A DNA stretch of 64,000 nucleotides from Arthrobacter sp. 9AX. Lineage in GTDB: Bacteria > Actinomycetota > Actinomycetes > Actinomycetales > Micrococcaceae. Positions 40,980 through 46,524 of this stretch are shown one piece after another. The position numbers and the translations under genes are program-made. Every line of letters begins with the position of its first letter. The stretch's first letter is position 1. The DNA is taken from contig NZ_LR733293.1 of the NCBI RefSeq assembly GCF_902506095.1, positions 2,366,558 through 2,430,557 on the forward strand, read 5' to 3'. The notes under the pieces were generated by a model. That model was not told the origin of the DNA, did not search any database, and saw only the letters and a program-made list of their open reading frames with translations.

Positions 40980-41712
40980 TTTGCTCCTCCAAAAGGGGTG
41001 GGGTGGCCCTTTATGTCTACGGGGAGGTTCTTGCAAAACACTTTGAGCCCCGGTTGGAAAAACCTTGCGAAGACGCCCCAAGTGTCACTAAGGCAATGCG
41101 CGTCGCACCTCCCCGACAGCCGTGGCCTGCGTTCCCGGAATGCGTACCCGACGCCGCTGGAGGCAGAAGGGCGCGCTCCCTGCACACGGCGCTTCCGCAG
41201 CACGTAAAAAGGTGAACGGTTGTGACCGGGCCCGGCACCGCATCGTCCTGCAGCGCCGGGCGCGGCCGGTTCTGGGCTTAGTGAGGTTGTCAGTCGCACC
41301 ACCAGGATCAGAACGTCTCCACGGTTGCTCACCGGCCTTGGAAAAACCAAACGGGCGTTCCAATTGGCTGCTGAGATTTGAGGTGGCGGGGGCGACGTTT
41401 TTTCACTGTCGGGGAGAGACGTGACAGAGCCGTTTTCTACCTTGCGACCAGGGCGGTGCCGGGAGGCACTCACGTAACCATGGCGAATGGATTCACAACG
41501 CGGCTTTGGTGGCCGCGCGCTTCTGTATCCCTGCCGTGTTGTTCCGACTAGGTCGGCATGGAGTGGTGTCGATGTCCGGGTCCGAACCTGAACGCAGTAG
41601 TCCGGCTTCTCAGGGAGCTCTGAAGAACTCAATCATCGATGGAGCAGCGCGCTCGAATGCAACAACCAGGTCCAATCACTGAAGGGGTAAAGACCCACCC
41701 GCTCAACTGCAG
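40980..41712. other. Long intergenic region upstream of the secreted protein and downstream of the LysR gene
   Basis: No convincing ORF in 730 bp. On the minus strand TTGCAA (41031-41036), 17 nt and TAAAGG (41008-41013) form a possible promoter for the secreted-protein gene. The 11-mer TTGGAAAAACC occurs twice in direct orientation, at 41054-41064 and 41338-41348. Confidence 0.35.
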
Positions 41713-42654
41713 TCAGTCGAGCAGCGCTACGCCGAACTCAGCGACGACGGCCCGCAATTCCCTGAGGTAGCGCTGCGCCTGGTCGGTGAGCGGAATCGCT
41801 GCGTGGCCGATCCAGCCGATCTCGATGCGTTCGTCAACGTCGAGCGGGATGGCGACGATCTCCGGGTCGAGCTGCCCGCTGATGATGCCCGTCGAGATCG
41901 TGTAGCCGTGGAGCCCGATCATGAGGTTGAAGATCGTCGCACGGTCGGAGACCCGGATCTCCTGCTTGCTGGACAAGGTGGAGAGAATCTCCTCGGCGAA
42001 GTAAAAAGAGTTGTTCGCACCTTGATCGAAGGTTAGCCGCGGCAAGCCGGCGAGATCGGCGAGAGTCGCCCGCTCTTTTGAGGCGAGCGGGTTGTTCCGT
42101 GAAATGAAAATGTGCGGATCGGCGAGGAAAAGCGGAGTGAACGCGAGCCCGGATTCCCGGAGCAGCTTGTCGATGATCTTCCGGTTGAAATCGTTCCGGT
42201 AGAGGATGCCTATCTCGCTGCGGAGGGTGCGGACATCCTCGATGATGTCCCAGGTGCGGGTCTCACGCAGCGAGAACTCGTATTCGGCCACCTCAGCGGC
42301 CTTGACCATCCGCACGAAGGCGTCCACCGCGAACGAGTAGTGCTGCGTTGACACCCCGAGCAGACGTCGCGTCGGTGGCCTGCCAAGGTAGCGCTGCTCA
42401 AGGAGAGCGAACTGCTCGACGACCTGCCTCGCATAGCCGAGGAACTCTACCCCGTCGGCGGTGAGGGTCACCCCGCGGGCAGAGCGAACCAGGAGCGGAC
42501 GGCCCACCCGGGCTTCAAGGTCCTTCATCGCTGCGGACATTGTCGGCTGCGCTACGTAGAGAAGATCGGCAGCCGCGGAGATCGACCCCTCAGCTGCAAC
42601 TTCTATGAAATAGCGGAGCTGCTGCAGGGTCAGTCCGCTCGAAAGCTGGGGCAT
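41713..42654 (-). CDS. LysR-family regulator divergent from the mesX-mesD operon
   Basis: 313-aa LysR-type transcriptional regulator. The N-terminal winged HTH is 'LTLQQLRYFIEVAAEGSIS' and 'AAADLLYVAQPTMSAAMKD' followed by 'LEARVGRPLLVRSARGVTL'. The co-inducer domain contains 'SEIGILYRNDFNRK' and 'FISRNNPLASKE'. The divergent position makes it the likely regulator of mesX, mesD and the flavin reductase; methionine, homocysteine or O-acetylhomoserine would be natural effectors (inference). TAGACT (42661-42666) ends 6 nt before the ATG, and a palindrome overlaps this box, so autorepression is plausible. Confidence 0.93.
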   Translation of the reverse strand: MPQLSSGLTLQQLRYFIEVAAEGSISAAADLLYVAQPTMSAAMKDLEARVGRPLLVRSARGVTLTADGVEFLGYARQVVEQFALLEQRYLGRPPTRRLLGVSTQHYSFAVDAFVRMVKAAEVAEYEFSLRETRTWDIIEDVRTLRSEIGILYRNDFNRKIIDKLLRESGLAFTPLFLADPHIFISRNNPLASKERATLADLAGLPRLTFDQGANNSFYFAEEILSTLSSKQEIRVSDRATIFNLMIGLHGYTISTGIISGQLDPEIVAIPLDVDERIEIGWIGHAAIPLTDQAQRYLRELRAVVAEFGVALLD

Positions 42655-42660
42655 AGGAAA

Positions 42661-42713
42661 AGTCTATATGAATGCATAGCAGCGCCGAGTTACTCGATAC
42701 CCTCCGATAGGTT
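42661..42713. promoter_or_regulatory. Divergent LysR/mesX control region with two palindromes
   Basis: Contains the LysR -10 TAGACT (minus, 42661-42666) and the imperfect repeat CTAT-N8-ATAG (42664-42679), which includes T-N11-A spacing typical of LysR sites. It also has a perfect odd palindrome CGAGT-T-ACTCG (42686-42696) and a plus-strand TAGGTT (42708-42713) as the probable mesX -10. Confidence 0.55.
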
Positions 42714-42775
42714 GCACCATGGATGCATCCCCTTCTGGAAGGCCGTCTCCGGCCCATCAACAACGGATTGGCAGC

Positions 42776-43768
42776 ATGGCAGACGACTTCACCTTCAGTA
42801 TCACCACCACCCGCTTCGACGAGGACTACTCCCCGTCGGAAGACTCCCGCATCACGACGAATTTCGCCAACCTGGCACGGGGCGAGCACCGCCAGGAGAA
42901 CCTCCGCAACGCCTTGACCATGATGCGGCGCCGCTTCAACGATCTCGCAGACTGGGACAACCCGGACCGGGACCGCTATACGCTCGAGCTTGAGATCGTT
43001 TCCGTGCAGATACAGCTCACCGCAGACGGCACGGATCAGCAGTTCCCGCTGTTCGAGGTTCTCGATATCCAGATCGTCGATCTGCTGAACGGGGTCCGCC
43101 ACCAGGGAATCGTCGGCAACAACTTCTCCTCCTACGTCCGAGACTTCGACTTCAGCGTCGTACTGCCAGCGGCAGCAGGGGGCTCAGGCAAGCCCACCGT
43201 GCCCGAGGACTTCGGAGACCTTCACGGCAAACTGTTCCAGCACTTCCTCGATTCCCCGGAATACCAGGAACGCTTCCCGCAGCCGCCAGTGGTGTGCATC
43301 AGCGTCTCCACGAGCAAGACGTACCGGCGAACGGAGAACCGTCACCCGGTTCTGGGCGTCGAGTACCAGCAGGACGAGTTCTCGCTGACAGACGCATACT
43401 TCGCAAAGATGGGGCTGCAGGTCCGCTACTTCATGCCACGCGGCAGCGTTGCGCCGCTGGCCTTCTATTTCCGCGGCGACCTGCTCAACGACTACTCCAA
43501 TCTGCAGCTCATCGGCACGATCAGCACCATGGAGACGTTCCAGAAGATCTACCGCCCGGAGGTCTACAACGCGAACTCCGCCGCCGCCGTCGTCTACCAG
43601 CCGAGCCTGGGTGAGCAGGATTACTCACGGACCCAGATCGCTTATGACCGCGTCGAGCGCGGTCAGCTCGCGGTCACGCAGGCGAAGTACACGGAGGAAC
43701 ACTTCATCACGCCCCACAAGGATCTGTTGGACCAGTGGACCGCCAACTACCCCGCTCTCGTCAACTGA
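42776..43768 (+). CDS. mesX: MesX (DUF1852), partner of the folate-independent methionine synthase MesD
   Basis: 330-aa DUF1852 protein. Typical strings: 'FTFSITTTRFDEDYSPSED', 'RITTNFANLARGEHRQENL', 'ALTMMRRRFNDLADWDNPD', 'DFSVVLPAAA', 'VVCISVSTSKTYRRTENRH' and 'ALVN' at the end. DUF1852 is required together with MesD and oxygen for methionine synthesis without methylfolate or cobalamin; its chemical role is not known, and supplying the methyl group is the leading idea. No cofactor motif is obvious. Start 42776 matches the family N-terminus; an in-frame ATG at 42719, 5 nt after TAGGTT, could be a leaderless start adding 19 residues. mesD follows 20 bp downstream. Confidence 0.9.
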   Translation: MADDFTFSITTTRFDEDYSPSEDSRITTNFANLARGEHRQENLRNALTMMRRRFNDLADWDNPDRDRYTLELEIVSVQIQLTADGTDQQFPLFEVLDIQIVDLLNGVRHQGIVGNNFSSYVRDFDFSVVLPAAAGGSGKPTVPEDFGDLHGKLFQHFLDSPEYQERFPQPPVVCISVSTSKTYRRTENRHPVLGVEYQQDEFSLTDAYFAKMGLQVRYFMPRGSVAPLAFYFRGDLLNDYSNLQLIGTISTMETFQKIYRPEVYNANSAAAVVYQPSLGEQDYSRTQIAYDRVERGQLAVTQAKYTEEHFITPHKDLLDQWTANYPALVN

Positions 43769-43788
43769 CCCACGGAGAATCGCCAATC

Positions 43789-44835
43789 ATGAACACACTC
43801 TTGCCCACCACCCTTGTCGGAAGCCTGCCGAAACCATCGTGGCTCGCACAGCCGGAGACTCTTTGGTCCCCGTGGAAGCTGGAAGGAGATGCGCTGCTCG
43901 AGGGCAAGCAGGACGCGCTGCGCATCGCCATCCACGAGCAGAGCCGGCGCGGCATCGACATTGTCAGCGACGGCGAGCAAACCCGCCAGCACTTCGTCAC
44001 GACCTTCATCGAGCATCTCAGCGGGGTCGATTTTGAACAGCGCAAGACCGTGCGCATCCGCGATCGCTACGACGCGAGCGTACCGACCGTCGTCGGAGCG
44101 GTGCGCCGCGAGCGGCCGGTATTCGTCGAAGACGCCAAATTCCTCCGCGCAAGCACAGACAAGCCGATCAAATGGACTCTTCCCGGTCCAATGACGATGG
44201 TGGACACGCTCTACGATGACCACTACAAGAGCCGCGAGAAGCTGGCCTGGGAGTTCGCCACGATCCTGAACCAGGAGGCGAAAGAACTCGAGGCGGCCGG
44301 CGTTGACATCATCCAGTTCGACGAGCCCGCGTTCAATGTCTTCCTGGATGAGGTCAAGGACTGGGGCGTGGCTGCGCTTGAGAGAGCGGCAGAAGGGCTG
44401 CGTGCCGAGACCGCCGTGCATATCTGCTACGGCTACGGGATCAAGGCCAACACTGACTGGAAGGCGACGCTCGGCTCACAGTGGAGGCAGTACGAGGAAA
44501 CGTTCCCGCTGCTTCAGAGCTCCAGCATCGACATCATCTCGCTGGAGTGCCAGAACTCCCACGTGCCCATGGACCTCATCGAGCTCCTCCGCGGCAAGAA
44601 GGTCATGCTCGGGGCTATCGACGTCGCAAGCGAGACCATTGAGACCCCGGAGGAAGTCGCCGACACCCTCCGCAAGGCCCTGCAGTTCGTCGATGCGGAC
44701 AAGCTCATCCCCAGCTCTAACTGCGGCATGGCACCGTTCCCCCGGGACGTCGCACTGGCCAAACTGAGTGCCCTCAGCGCCGGGACGAACATCGTTCGCG
44801 AGGAACTCGCCCGCTCCGCCCCCAGGGTGTCATAA
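43789..44835 (+). CDS. mesD: MesD-type core methionine synthase (MetE C-terminal domain only)
   Basis: 348-aa protein equal to the catalytic half of MetE without the N-terminal folate-binding half. The zinc/homocysteine ligands are present: His211 and Cys213 in 'HICYGYG', Glu253 in 'SLECQNSH', and Cys312 in 'SSNCGMAP'. 'TTLVGSLPKP' and 'PGPMTMVDTLY' are conserved core segments. Association with DUF1852 identifies it as the MesD family, which makes methionine from homocysteine with an unidentified methyl donor and an oxygen requirement. GGAGA lies upstream of the ATG. It sits 2 bp before the flavin reductase gene. Confidence 0.92.
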   Translation: MNTLLPTTLVGSLPKPSWLAQPETLWSPWKLEGDALLEGKQDALRIAIHEQSRRGIDIVSDGEQTRQHFVTTFIEHLSGVDFEQRKTVRIRDRYDASVPTVVGAVRRERPVFVEDAKFLRASTDKPIKWTLPGPMTMVDTLYDDHYKSREKLAWEFATILNQEAKELEAAGVDIIQFDEPAFNVFLDEVKDWGVAALERAAEGLRAETAVHICYGYGIKANTDWKATLGSQWRQYEETFPLLQSSSIDIISLECQNSHVPMDLIELLRGKKVMLGAIDVASETIETPEEVADTLRKALQFVDADKLIPSSNCGMAPFPRDVALAKLSALSAGTNIVREELARSAPRVS

Positions 44836-44837
44836 GG

Positions 44838-45410
44838 ATGTTTCACGCCTACCCCGCAGACACGTGGCTCGAGGCACCGAAACAACGCTTCCCGTCCTCC
44901 CTCTCAGCCGACGAATTCAAAGCACTGTTCCGTGGGCACCCCGGAGGTGTCGCCGTCATCACCGCGGATGCCGGCGAAGGACCGGTGGCACTGACGGTAT
45001 CGTCGGTCGTGTCAGTGAGTGCGGACCCTCCATTGCTGGTTTTCTCGGTCTCGGCACTGTCCTCGGCGTCAGAGGTGCTTTCCCGCGCCGAATCCGTCGT
45101 CGTGCACCTGCTGGACGCGCACGACGTCGACTTGGCGAAGTTTGGAGCGACCCCCGGCGCCGACCGCTTTGACCAGACGCACCGCTGGTCGGCCCTTGCC
45201 ACCGGCGAAGCGGTGTATAACGATGTCCGCGCGTGGGTGCGCTGCGCCGTCATCAATCGCATGGAGGTGGGGACCTCCACAGTCATCGCCGTTCACGCCC
45301 TGGAATCCCGCGTGATGCGTGACGTCCAGGCGGGCGAACCCGGCGACGCCCTGGTCTACCACAACCGTTCATGGCACCGTCTGGGCGAGTATTCCAAGCT
45401 TGGAGGCTGA
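44838..45410 (+). CDS. Flavin reductase family protein in the mesXD operon
   Basis: 190-aa FMN-binding split-barrel protein of the flavin reductase-like family (HpaC/RutF type). The core is 'LFRGHPGGVAVITAD', 'VALTVSSVVSVSADPPLLV' (the T-x-S-S-x-x-S-x-S-x-x-P-P flavin signature), 'VHLLDAHDVDLAKFGATPG', and a conserved late region 'GDALVYHNRSWHRLGEYS'. Such enzymes usually supply reduced FMN to a partner monooxygenase. Starting 2 bp after mesD, it is presumably co-translated, suggesting that reduced flavin and O2 feed the MesX/MesD reaction (inference). No separate monooxygenase is present in the operon. Confidence 0.9.
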   Translation: MFHAYPADTWLEAPKQRFPSSLSADEFKALFRGHPGGVAVITADAGEGPVALTVSSVVSVSADPPLLVFSVSALSSASEVLSRAESVVVHLLDAHDVDLAKFGATPGADRFDQTHRWSALATGEAVYNDVRAWVRCAVINRMEVGTSTVIAVHALESRVMRDVQAGEPGDALVYHNRSWHRLGEYSKLGG

Positions 45411-45616
45411 GCGCCGCGCCAACAATGCGAGGCAACCACCGAACGCCGTCGTCCTGGTTAACATCGGAGCGTGCATCCATTTCCTGAATGCTCGGATGCA
45501 ACCGTGGTCTGCACGACTTGCGCTTTTGCGGCGCGCAGAAACGATCGGTGAACCCATCAACCCACCCTCTAGGGAAGAATTGGACGGGCAACCTAGTGAC
45601 GAGGAGAACAACACAC
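45411..45616. other. Intergenic region upstream of the PEBP gene
   Basis: About 200 bp with no gene. It should contain the 3' end of the mes operon transcript and the promoter of the following gene; no strong hairpin or clear promoter was identified. Confidence 0.3.
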
Positions 45617-46144
45617 GTGACATCCCATGACCCTTACGAAAGACTTCCCCAGCTTCCGGAATTTCAGGTAACCAGCACCGACATCGCGCACGGCCTCACG
45701 CTTTCCCCGGCACAGCGCAGCGGGAAGATGGGCATTAAAGGCGGCGAGGACCGGTCCCCACAGCTGTCGTGGTCGGGCTTTCCTGCGGAGAGCAAGAGCT
45801 TTGCGGTCACCGTCCTCGACCCCGATGCTCCGACTGGGAGTGGTTTTTGGCACTGGGCCGTGTTCAACCTGCCAGCGTCGACCACCTCCCTTCCCTCCGG
45901 CGCAGCGGAGGGCGGACTGCCCGAAGGTGCCGTGCAGTTGGCGAATGACGCCGGCTTCCCCGGCTTCGTGGGCGCGGCGCCGCCCTCCGGTCACGGTGTG
46001 CACCACTATCACGTGGTGGTACACGCCCTGAATCTGGATAAGCTCGACATCCCCAGTGAAGCCAGCCCCGCCTATCTGGGGTTCAACCTCTTTTCGCACG
46101 CCATCGGCCGCGCACGACTGGTCGGTACTTTCGAGCAGCCCTAA
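45617..46144 (+). CDS. YbhB/YbcL family Raf kinase inhibitor-like (PEBP) protein
   Basis: 175-aa phosphatidylethanolamine-binding-protein fold. The signature is '[19 protein letters not shown]' and '[19 protein letters not shown]', then '[15 protein letters not shown]' with the ligand-pocket histidines. Cytoplasmic (no signal peptide). The GTG at 45617 has AGGAG upstream (about 10 nt). Bacterial members have no agreed function. A PEBP gene also occurs near pyrD and an M20 gene in mycobacteria (Rv2140c), but here it is in a different position. Confidence 0.92.
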
Positions 46145-46150
46145 CACGAT

Positions 46151-46393
46151 TCATAACTGTAGGTGCACGTCCGGGTGCTCCGGACGTGCACCTACAGCTA
46201 CTGGGAGACACGGCGCGCGCACGTTCCCGTCACCTTCGACAACAAATTTCGCGGTCGTCTCAGTAGCCTCCGAAGCGTCCTCCGGCAGTTCGAGCAGTCG
46301 TGCGAGGGCGGCGCCGATAGCCTCCCATGAGTCTCCGTTCGAGCGGGCGGCGCTGACGGCGGCGTCCAGTTCCGCCTCGAGGGCGCCATTCAC
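46151..46393 (-). CDS. Doubtful 80-aa ORF, probably a truncated or frameshifted gene
   Basis: Starts with GTG 46393 overlapping the upstream TGA. It begins with a plausible helical stretch 'ALEAELDAAVSAARSNGDS' and 'WEAIGAALARLLELPED', resembling helix-turn-helix-like small proteins. The last 15 residues are encoded by the terminator hairpin at 46157-46197, so the natural C-terminus is not here. I treat it as a remnant or mis-ended gene. Confidence 0.3.
   Translation of the reverse strand: MNGALEAELDAAVSAARSNGDSWEAIGAALARLLELPEDASEATETTAKFVVEGDGNVRAPCLPVAVGARPEHPDVHLQL
46157..46197. terminator. Strong hairpin downstream of the PEBP gene
   Basis: Perfect 18-bp stem (arms starting CTGTAGGTGCACG) with a 5-nt loop (GTGCT), 12 bp after the stop. 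Without a long T-tract but exceptionally stable. Confidence 0.75.
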
Positions 46394-46524
46394 CGAAGCG
46401 GCGCGGCCAGATGCTCGACGTGCAGCACGTAGCCTTCTTCGGGACCGCGCTGCATGTAAAGGGTGAGGACGGTCTTTCCCTCGCCGTCGTCAAAGTCCAC
46501 TTTTCCGTAGCTCGCACTCGGCCG
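46390..46524 (-). pseudogene. C-terminal fragment of an unknown protein
   Basis: The frame reads 'SYGKVDFDDGEGKTVLTLY' and 'MQRGPEEGYVLHVEHLAAP' before TGA at 46390-46392. This is sensible protein-like sequence, but it is cut by a stop just upstream and has no start signal. It overlaps the next small ORF by its stop, suggesting the two were once a coupled pair. Confidence 0.35.

Follow-up and report, generated by a model that had tools for sequence, protein, structure and literature searches.

MesD is a core methionine synthase that, according to the sections of Price, Deutschbauer and Arkin (2021; PMC7857596) drawn on here, requires MesX and aerobic conditions, but not methyl-folate, in agreement with the oxygen requirement assumed in an earlier sequence-only reading of the locus described below. 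Oxygen-dependent, folate-independent methionine synthesis was demonstrated in that work with S. koreensis genes in E. coli, and mesD and mesX, without a linked reductase, rescue E. coli mutants in metE and in metF, MetF being dispensable for the MesD/MesX route (PMC7857596). The authors also reported flavin reductases near mes genes and predicted that MesX uses flavin, mentioned an A. baylyi protein that resembles MetF and has no assigned function, and remarked that the aerobic requirement may reflect peroxide (PMC7857596). The sequence-only reading had proposed that a flavin reductase supplies FMNH2 to MesX; since Price et al. had predicted flavin use by MesX, this hypothesis is theirs, already published in 2021, and is not new (PMC7857596). 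No test of it was found among the later papers searched.

Another close point of comparison is the two-component FMNH2-dependent monooxygenases, such as MsuE with MsuD or SfnG, HpaBC, and DszC with its reductase, in which a small NAD(P)H:FMN reductase stands beside an oxygen-using component. These systems use reductases of the same families as those in mes clusters, and in mes loci an FMN reductase gene likewise adjoins a candidate oxygen-using component, MesX. MesX differs, however, in having neither a luciferase-like nor an acyl-CoA dehydrogenase signature, and searches with its predicted fold gave no clear relative.

The window (the whole 64,000-nucleotide stretch of DNA from the soil bacterium Arthrobacter sp. 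9AX analysed here) contains a mes locus in which a LysR-family regulator gene is followed by mesX, mesD and a predicted flavin reductase gene (Table 1). The protein families, the mesX-mesD order, the nearby flavin reductase and the flavin/oxygen hypothesis are all the same as for the system of Price et al., but the sections of their report considered here name only two linked reductases, and describe neither a three-gene cluster with a 2-bp junction nor the linkage of two unrelated reductase families that emerged from our surveys. Activity was shown for the S. koreensis genes in E. coli (PMC7857596), and for the strain of the window it is predicted from the genes.

Table 1. Features of the mes locus, with positions numbered from the first letter of the window.
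Feature	Position	Strand	Details
LysR-family regulator, divergent from mesX	41713..42654	-	Pfam
mesX (PF08908, formerly DUF1852), putative oxygenase	42776..43768	+	Start chosen from alignment as the likelier one; ORF open from ATG 42719
mesD, folate-independent core methionine synthase	43789..44835	+	NF006589, 672.9 bits (cut-off 392)
mesD, alternative longer form	from 43735	+	Possible GTG start
mesD-reductase junction	44833..44840	+	Sequence: mesD stop TAA (44833-44835), GG, reductase ATG
Flavin reductase (PF01613), third mes-cluster gene	44838..45410	+	190 aa, ATG start

The 2-bp gap between mesD and the reductase gene, on which the sequence-only reading had laid weight, is thus read directly in the letters. 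The same spacing is found in most Arthrobacter-group loci, and in some Microbacterium loci the two genes overlap by 4 bp. The LysR regulator is a recurring neighbour, lying beside mesX in 38 of 80 loci; the first 80 mes loci collected were those closest to the query and form a biased sample, and ORFs in the surveyed loci were called by a simple rule of length and conservation. On the 3' side of the cluster is a gene for a PEBP-family protein (Pfam). An Rfam scan of 41000-46500 returned no match and therefore no evidence of a riboswitch, and promoter and terminator scans were at chance level. Elsewhere in the window, 46960-47550 matches a NodA/GNAT-like acyltransferase (PF02474, 52.7 bits, cut-off 22), here on an actinobacterial chromosome. 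The genome also contains MetE-, MetF- and MetH-like genes, so MesD would be one of several routes to methionine, and it has six PF01613 genes in total, so the mes-linked reductase has possible substitutes in the five others.

The reductase matched Pfam PF01613 (Flavin_Reduct) over most of its length at 95.3 bits (cut-off 27), which bears out its earlier identification, and the closest solved structures are flavin reductases (e.g., 2qck). MesX matched PF08908 at 562 bits (cut-off 25), and MesD (348 aa, PF01717) has no folate domain. Although the PF01613 domain is common to the window reductase and the short-chain flavin reductases of the HpaC/RutF/FerA type, the former falls below every NCBIfam equivalog cut-off by a wide margin (RutF, 63.8 against 254.75; HpaC, 51.3 against 205.95), and no equivalog was assigned. 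It also departs from these enzymes at the GDH motif, which in PF01613-type reductases serves in NAD(P)H binding and is not required for Pfam membership. At this position the window reductase has G-T-S, the Acinetobacter reductases G-T-H and MesX-negative relatives G-D-S. The substitution suggests caution over the name of the enzyme. The claim that the operon holds no conventional flavin monooxygenase stands, in that scans of the cluster and of nearby ORFs turned up no luciferase-like or acyl-CoA-dehydrogenase-like family and no FAD monooxygenase.

A survey of the neighbourhoods of MesX genes, proposed in the sequence-only reading as a check, gave a divided answer. Within the Micrococcaceae, MesX was present in 36 of 245 genomes. 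Reductases with at least about 64% identity occurred in 15 genomes, all of them MesX-positive and all with the reductase gene adjacent to mesD, giving linkage in 15/36 against a rough expectation of about 0.003 if a gene's neighbour were drawn at random. At an E-value of 1e-40 or better, no such reductase was present in the remaining 21 MesX-positive Micrococcaceae. Some genomes without MesX have more distant homologues (44-60%), and in one case examined the gene adjoins that for a DszC-like protein of the acyl-CoA-dehydrogenase fold. Among 249 Microbacteriaceae genomes, MesX was found in 42, the reductase in 77 and both in 22; the association (22/42 against 55/207 MesX-negative genomes) has a Fisher p of 0.0016 with phylogeny ignored, and physical linkage was confined to 3 of the 42 MesX-positive genomes. 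Unlinked reductases in MesX-positive Microbacteriaceae had no common partner among their neighbours. Outside the Arthrobacter/Glutamicibacter group, the reductase is missing from most actinobacterial mes clusters, and none was linked in the mes loci examined from Rhodococcus, Pantoea, Acetobacter, Rahnella, Paracoccus, Vibrio and Klebsiella. MesX occurred in 12 of 399 Burkholderiales genomes, and in 8 of these 12 the cluster includes an FMN reductase from either of the two families described below; a class-level search around Xanthomonas found MesX in just 2 of 185 genomes. Linkage of the reductase to mes genes is thus real but, given 15/36 in Micrococcaceae and only 3/42 in Microbacteriaceae, limited to certain lineages.

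Several other genes were observed around these loci. At two Microbacterium loci, unlinked reductase copies about 70% identical to that of the window have cysteine-synthase-like, Cys/Met PLP, nitroreductase-like and LLM-like neighbours (several named by eye), and in Glutamicibacter loci such as L180 and L183, Cys/Met metabolism PLP enzymes (PF01053) adjoin the LysR-mesX pair. A distant MetF-like gene (PF02219, about 298 aa, with weak scores against MTHFR models) lies within 5 kb of mesX in 12 loci, recurring in Proteobacteria and appearing once in Microbacterium. On plasmids of Acidovorax and Novosphingobium, acnD and prpF of the 2-methylcitrate cycle are near mesXD.

PF01613 reductases lie 3' of mesD in Arthrobacter/Glutamicibacter, Rhizobiaceae, Acinetobacter and some Burkholderiales. 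A reductase tree (67 sequences) requires three origins for the mes-linked members, and a single clade for them was rejected (p-AU 8.75e-07); one clade joining the Rhizobiaceae and Acinetobacter reductases was not rejected (p 0.349). Five further Burkholderiales PF01613 reductases fell in two places, two with Acinetobacter and three in another clade. In addition, other mes clusters contain an MsuE-type NADPH:FMN reductase of the unrelated family PF03358 (TIGR03566, 258.6 bits, cut-off 212.5). Its gene is the immediate 5' neighbour of mesX in 14 loci from Proteobacteria (Xanthomonas, Janthinobacterium, Burkholderia, Achromobacter, Acidovorax and Cupriavidus) and likewise in three further records (Comamonadaceae and Aeromonas), and in genome G1008 (L294, 3866-6566) is located between mesX and mesD. 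Broken MesX fragments were also seen elsewhere in that last genome.

Flavin reductases of at least two unrelated kinds have therefore come to lie beside mesXD independently in different bacteria. In all six examined records in which MsuE was at least 71% identical to the Janthinobacterium protein, the gene was beside mesX, while the next homologues examined (57-61%) were beside SfnG or LLM monooxygenases, and neither of these monooxygenase families appeared among the 22 neighbours scanned in mes loci. MsuE beside mesX has the position in which its homologues stand next to SfnG, an FMNH2 monooxygenase. Of the new evidence, the repeated recruitment of non-homologous FMN reductases argues most strongly that reduced flavin is required. 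Because of the repeated linkage, the reductase likely works with mesXD, and the recurrence of unrelated FMN reductases where no conventional monooxygenase was found lends indirect support to a supply of FMNH2.

The reductase is nonetheless not obligatory for the mes system, since relatives with mesXD have lost it or carry it in broken form, and since mesD and mesX alone work in E. coli (PMC7857596). The nearest MesX relative of the window in our set, at 91% identity, lacks a reductase at its locus although mesXD is intact there, and in Glutamicibacter soli intact mesXD is followed by a reductase pseudogene with stops and frame changes. Over the MesX tree, reductase linkage changes at least 12 times. 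We accordingly rejected the idea that the reductase is a constant part of the system, as many mesXD loci have no linked reductase, and also the idea that it is a MesX-specific orthologue throughout, as its clade is common without MesX and the mes-linked members are polyphyletic. The best explanation is that the mes-linked reductase can be replaced by other flavin reductases of the cell. On a plasmid of Sinorhizobium sp. RAC02 (L219, 3399-5268), mesD and the reductase gene are intact and the upstream MesX is open only in its last part, which may reflect truncation or an assembly error.

With methylcobalamin, the A. baumannii MesX gene ABUW_3198 showed a log2 change of -8.33 and the flavin reductase gene ABUW_3196, two locus tags away, one of -2.52, which is consistent with joint regulation; sulfur genes in this organism likewise respond to B12. 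It is conceivable, though unlikely, that the reductase serves a general function or one in sulfur starvation, and is co-regulated with mesXD while having no direct role in methyl donation. The B12 response of the sulfur genes would fit such a role, as would the wide occurrence of the clade without MesX, the two unlinked Microbacterium copies among cysteine and methionine genes, and the loss or decay of the gene in relatives that keep mesXD. However, it leaves aside the independent linkage of unrelated FMN reductases, the tight junctions with mesD, and the MsuE gene inserted between mesX and mesD.

The structure of MesX was also predicted. An AlphaFold2 model built from 37 sequences had a pLDDT of 90 and a pTM of 0.89. 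Sequence search found no solved MesX homologue, Foldseek found no match for the model in the PDB at an E-value of 0.001 or better, and comparison with a viral library gave no match. With VIA-align 2, the best scores, up to a Z of 4.2, were to acetyltransferase-like (GNAT) folds, values that appear too low for kinship, and MesX may yet turn out to have a known fold. Across 121 MesX sequences, H150, H190, E94, D123, D125, E196, E253, E262, D291 and E294 are invariant or nearly so, and several arginines are also invariant. These conserved H, E and D residues may be enough for a metal site, and the predicted model matched no flavoenzyme fold in these searches, both of which would suit a MesX that is a metal-dependent (e.g., iron-dependent) oxygenase, with free reduced flavin from the reductase holding its metal, or the iron pool, in the reduced state. 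Ferric iron is among the substrates that FMN reductases can reduce. We consider this alternative improbable, although it is, with the indirect role above, one of the two main rivals, set against MsuE and PF01613 homologues that are known or were found as partners of FMNH2-dependent monooxygenases.

Taken together, the best single reading, which we hold with modest confidence, is that the reductase feeds FMNH2 to MesX. The enzyme would be the partner that reduces FMN in an oxygen-dependent system of two components, making FMNH2 with NAD(P)H; the FMNH2 would diffuse to MesX, which would react it with O2 and oxidise a central metabolite, so that a methyl group is released or activated, and MesD would pass this group to homocysteine. 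The core of the sequence-only reading thus survives in part: the recurrence of unrelated FMN reductases speaks for it, but the linked enzyme is not obligatory, as its losses and the E. coli rescue indicate, and the MesX model showed no recognisable flavin-binding fold, which counts against flavin use; the most likely role of the reductase is that of a replaceable supplier of FMNH2 to MesX. Two further sources of the oxygen dependence or of the methyl group deserve mention. Reduced flavin and O2 might yield peroxide, which, rather than flavin, would be the co-substrate of MesX; the peroxide remark of Price et al. (PMC7857596) leaves room for this, but an uncontrolled peroxide source would presumably be costly to the cell, and we regard it as very improbable. 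Reduced flavin might alternatively reduce a more oxidised one-carbon unit to the methyl group for MesD, given a reductase in the cluster and MetF-like genes near several mes loci. We give this hardly any credence, however, as the route requires aerobic conditions but can do without MetF (PMC7857596), and the oxygen requirement indicates an oxidation rather than a reduction. More tentatively, and as a possibility that we do not favour outright, MesX may be the founding member of a novel class of flavin-dependent oxygenases whose fold differs from those of known flavoenzymes; it would oxidatively cleave a central metabolite for its methyl group and take FMNH2 from whichever FMN reductase the lineage has recruited.

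Given that unrelated FMN reductases have been recruited repeatedly, flavin is the first cofactor to test, and the mes clusters that contain MsuE are ready three-gene cassettes for reconstitution in vitro. At stake is where MesD obtains its methyl group. Should MesX use FMNH2 and O2, these bacteria would have an oxidative route to the methyl group of methionine that bypasses both folate and B12.
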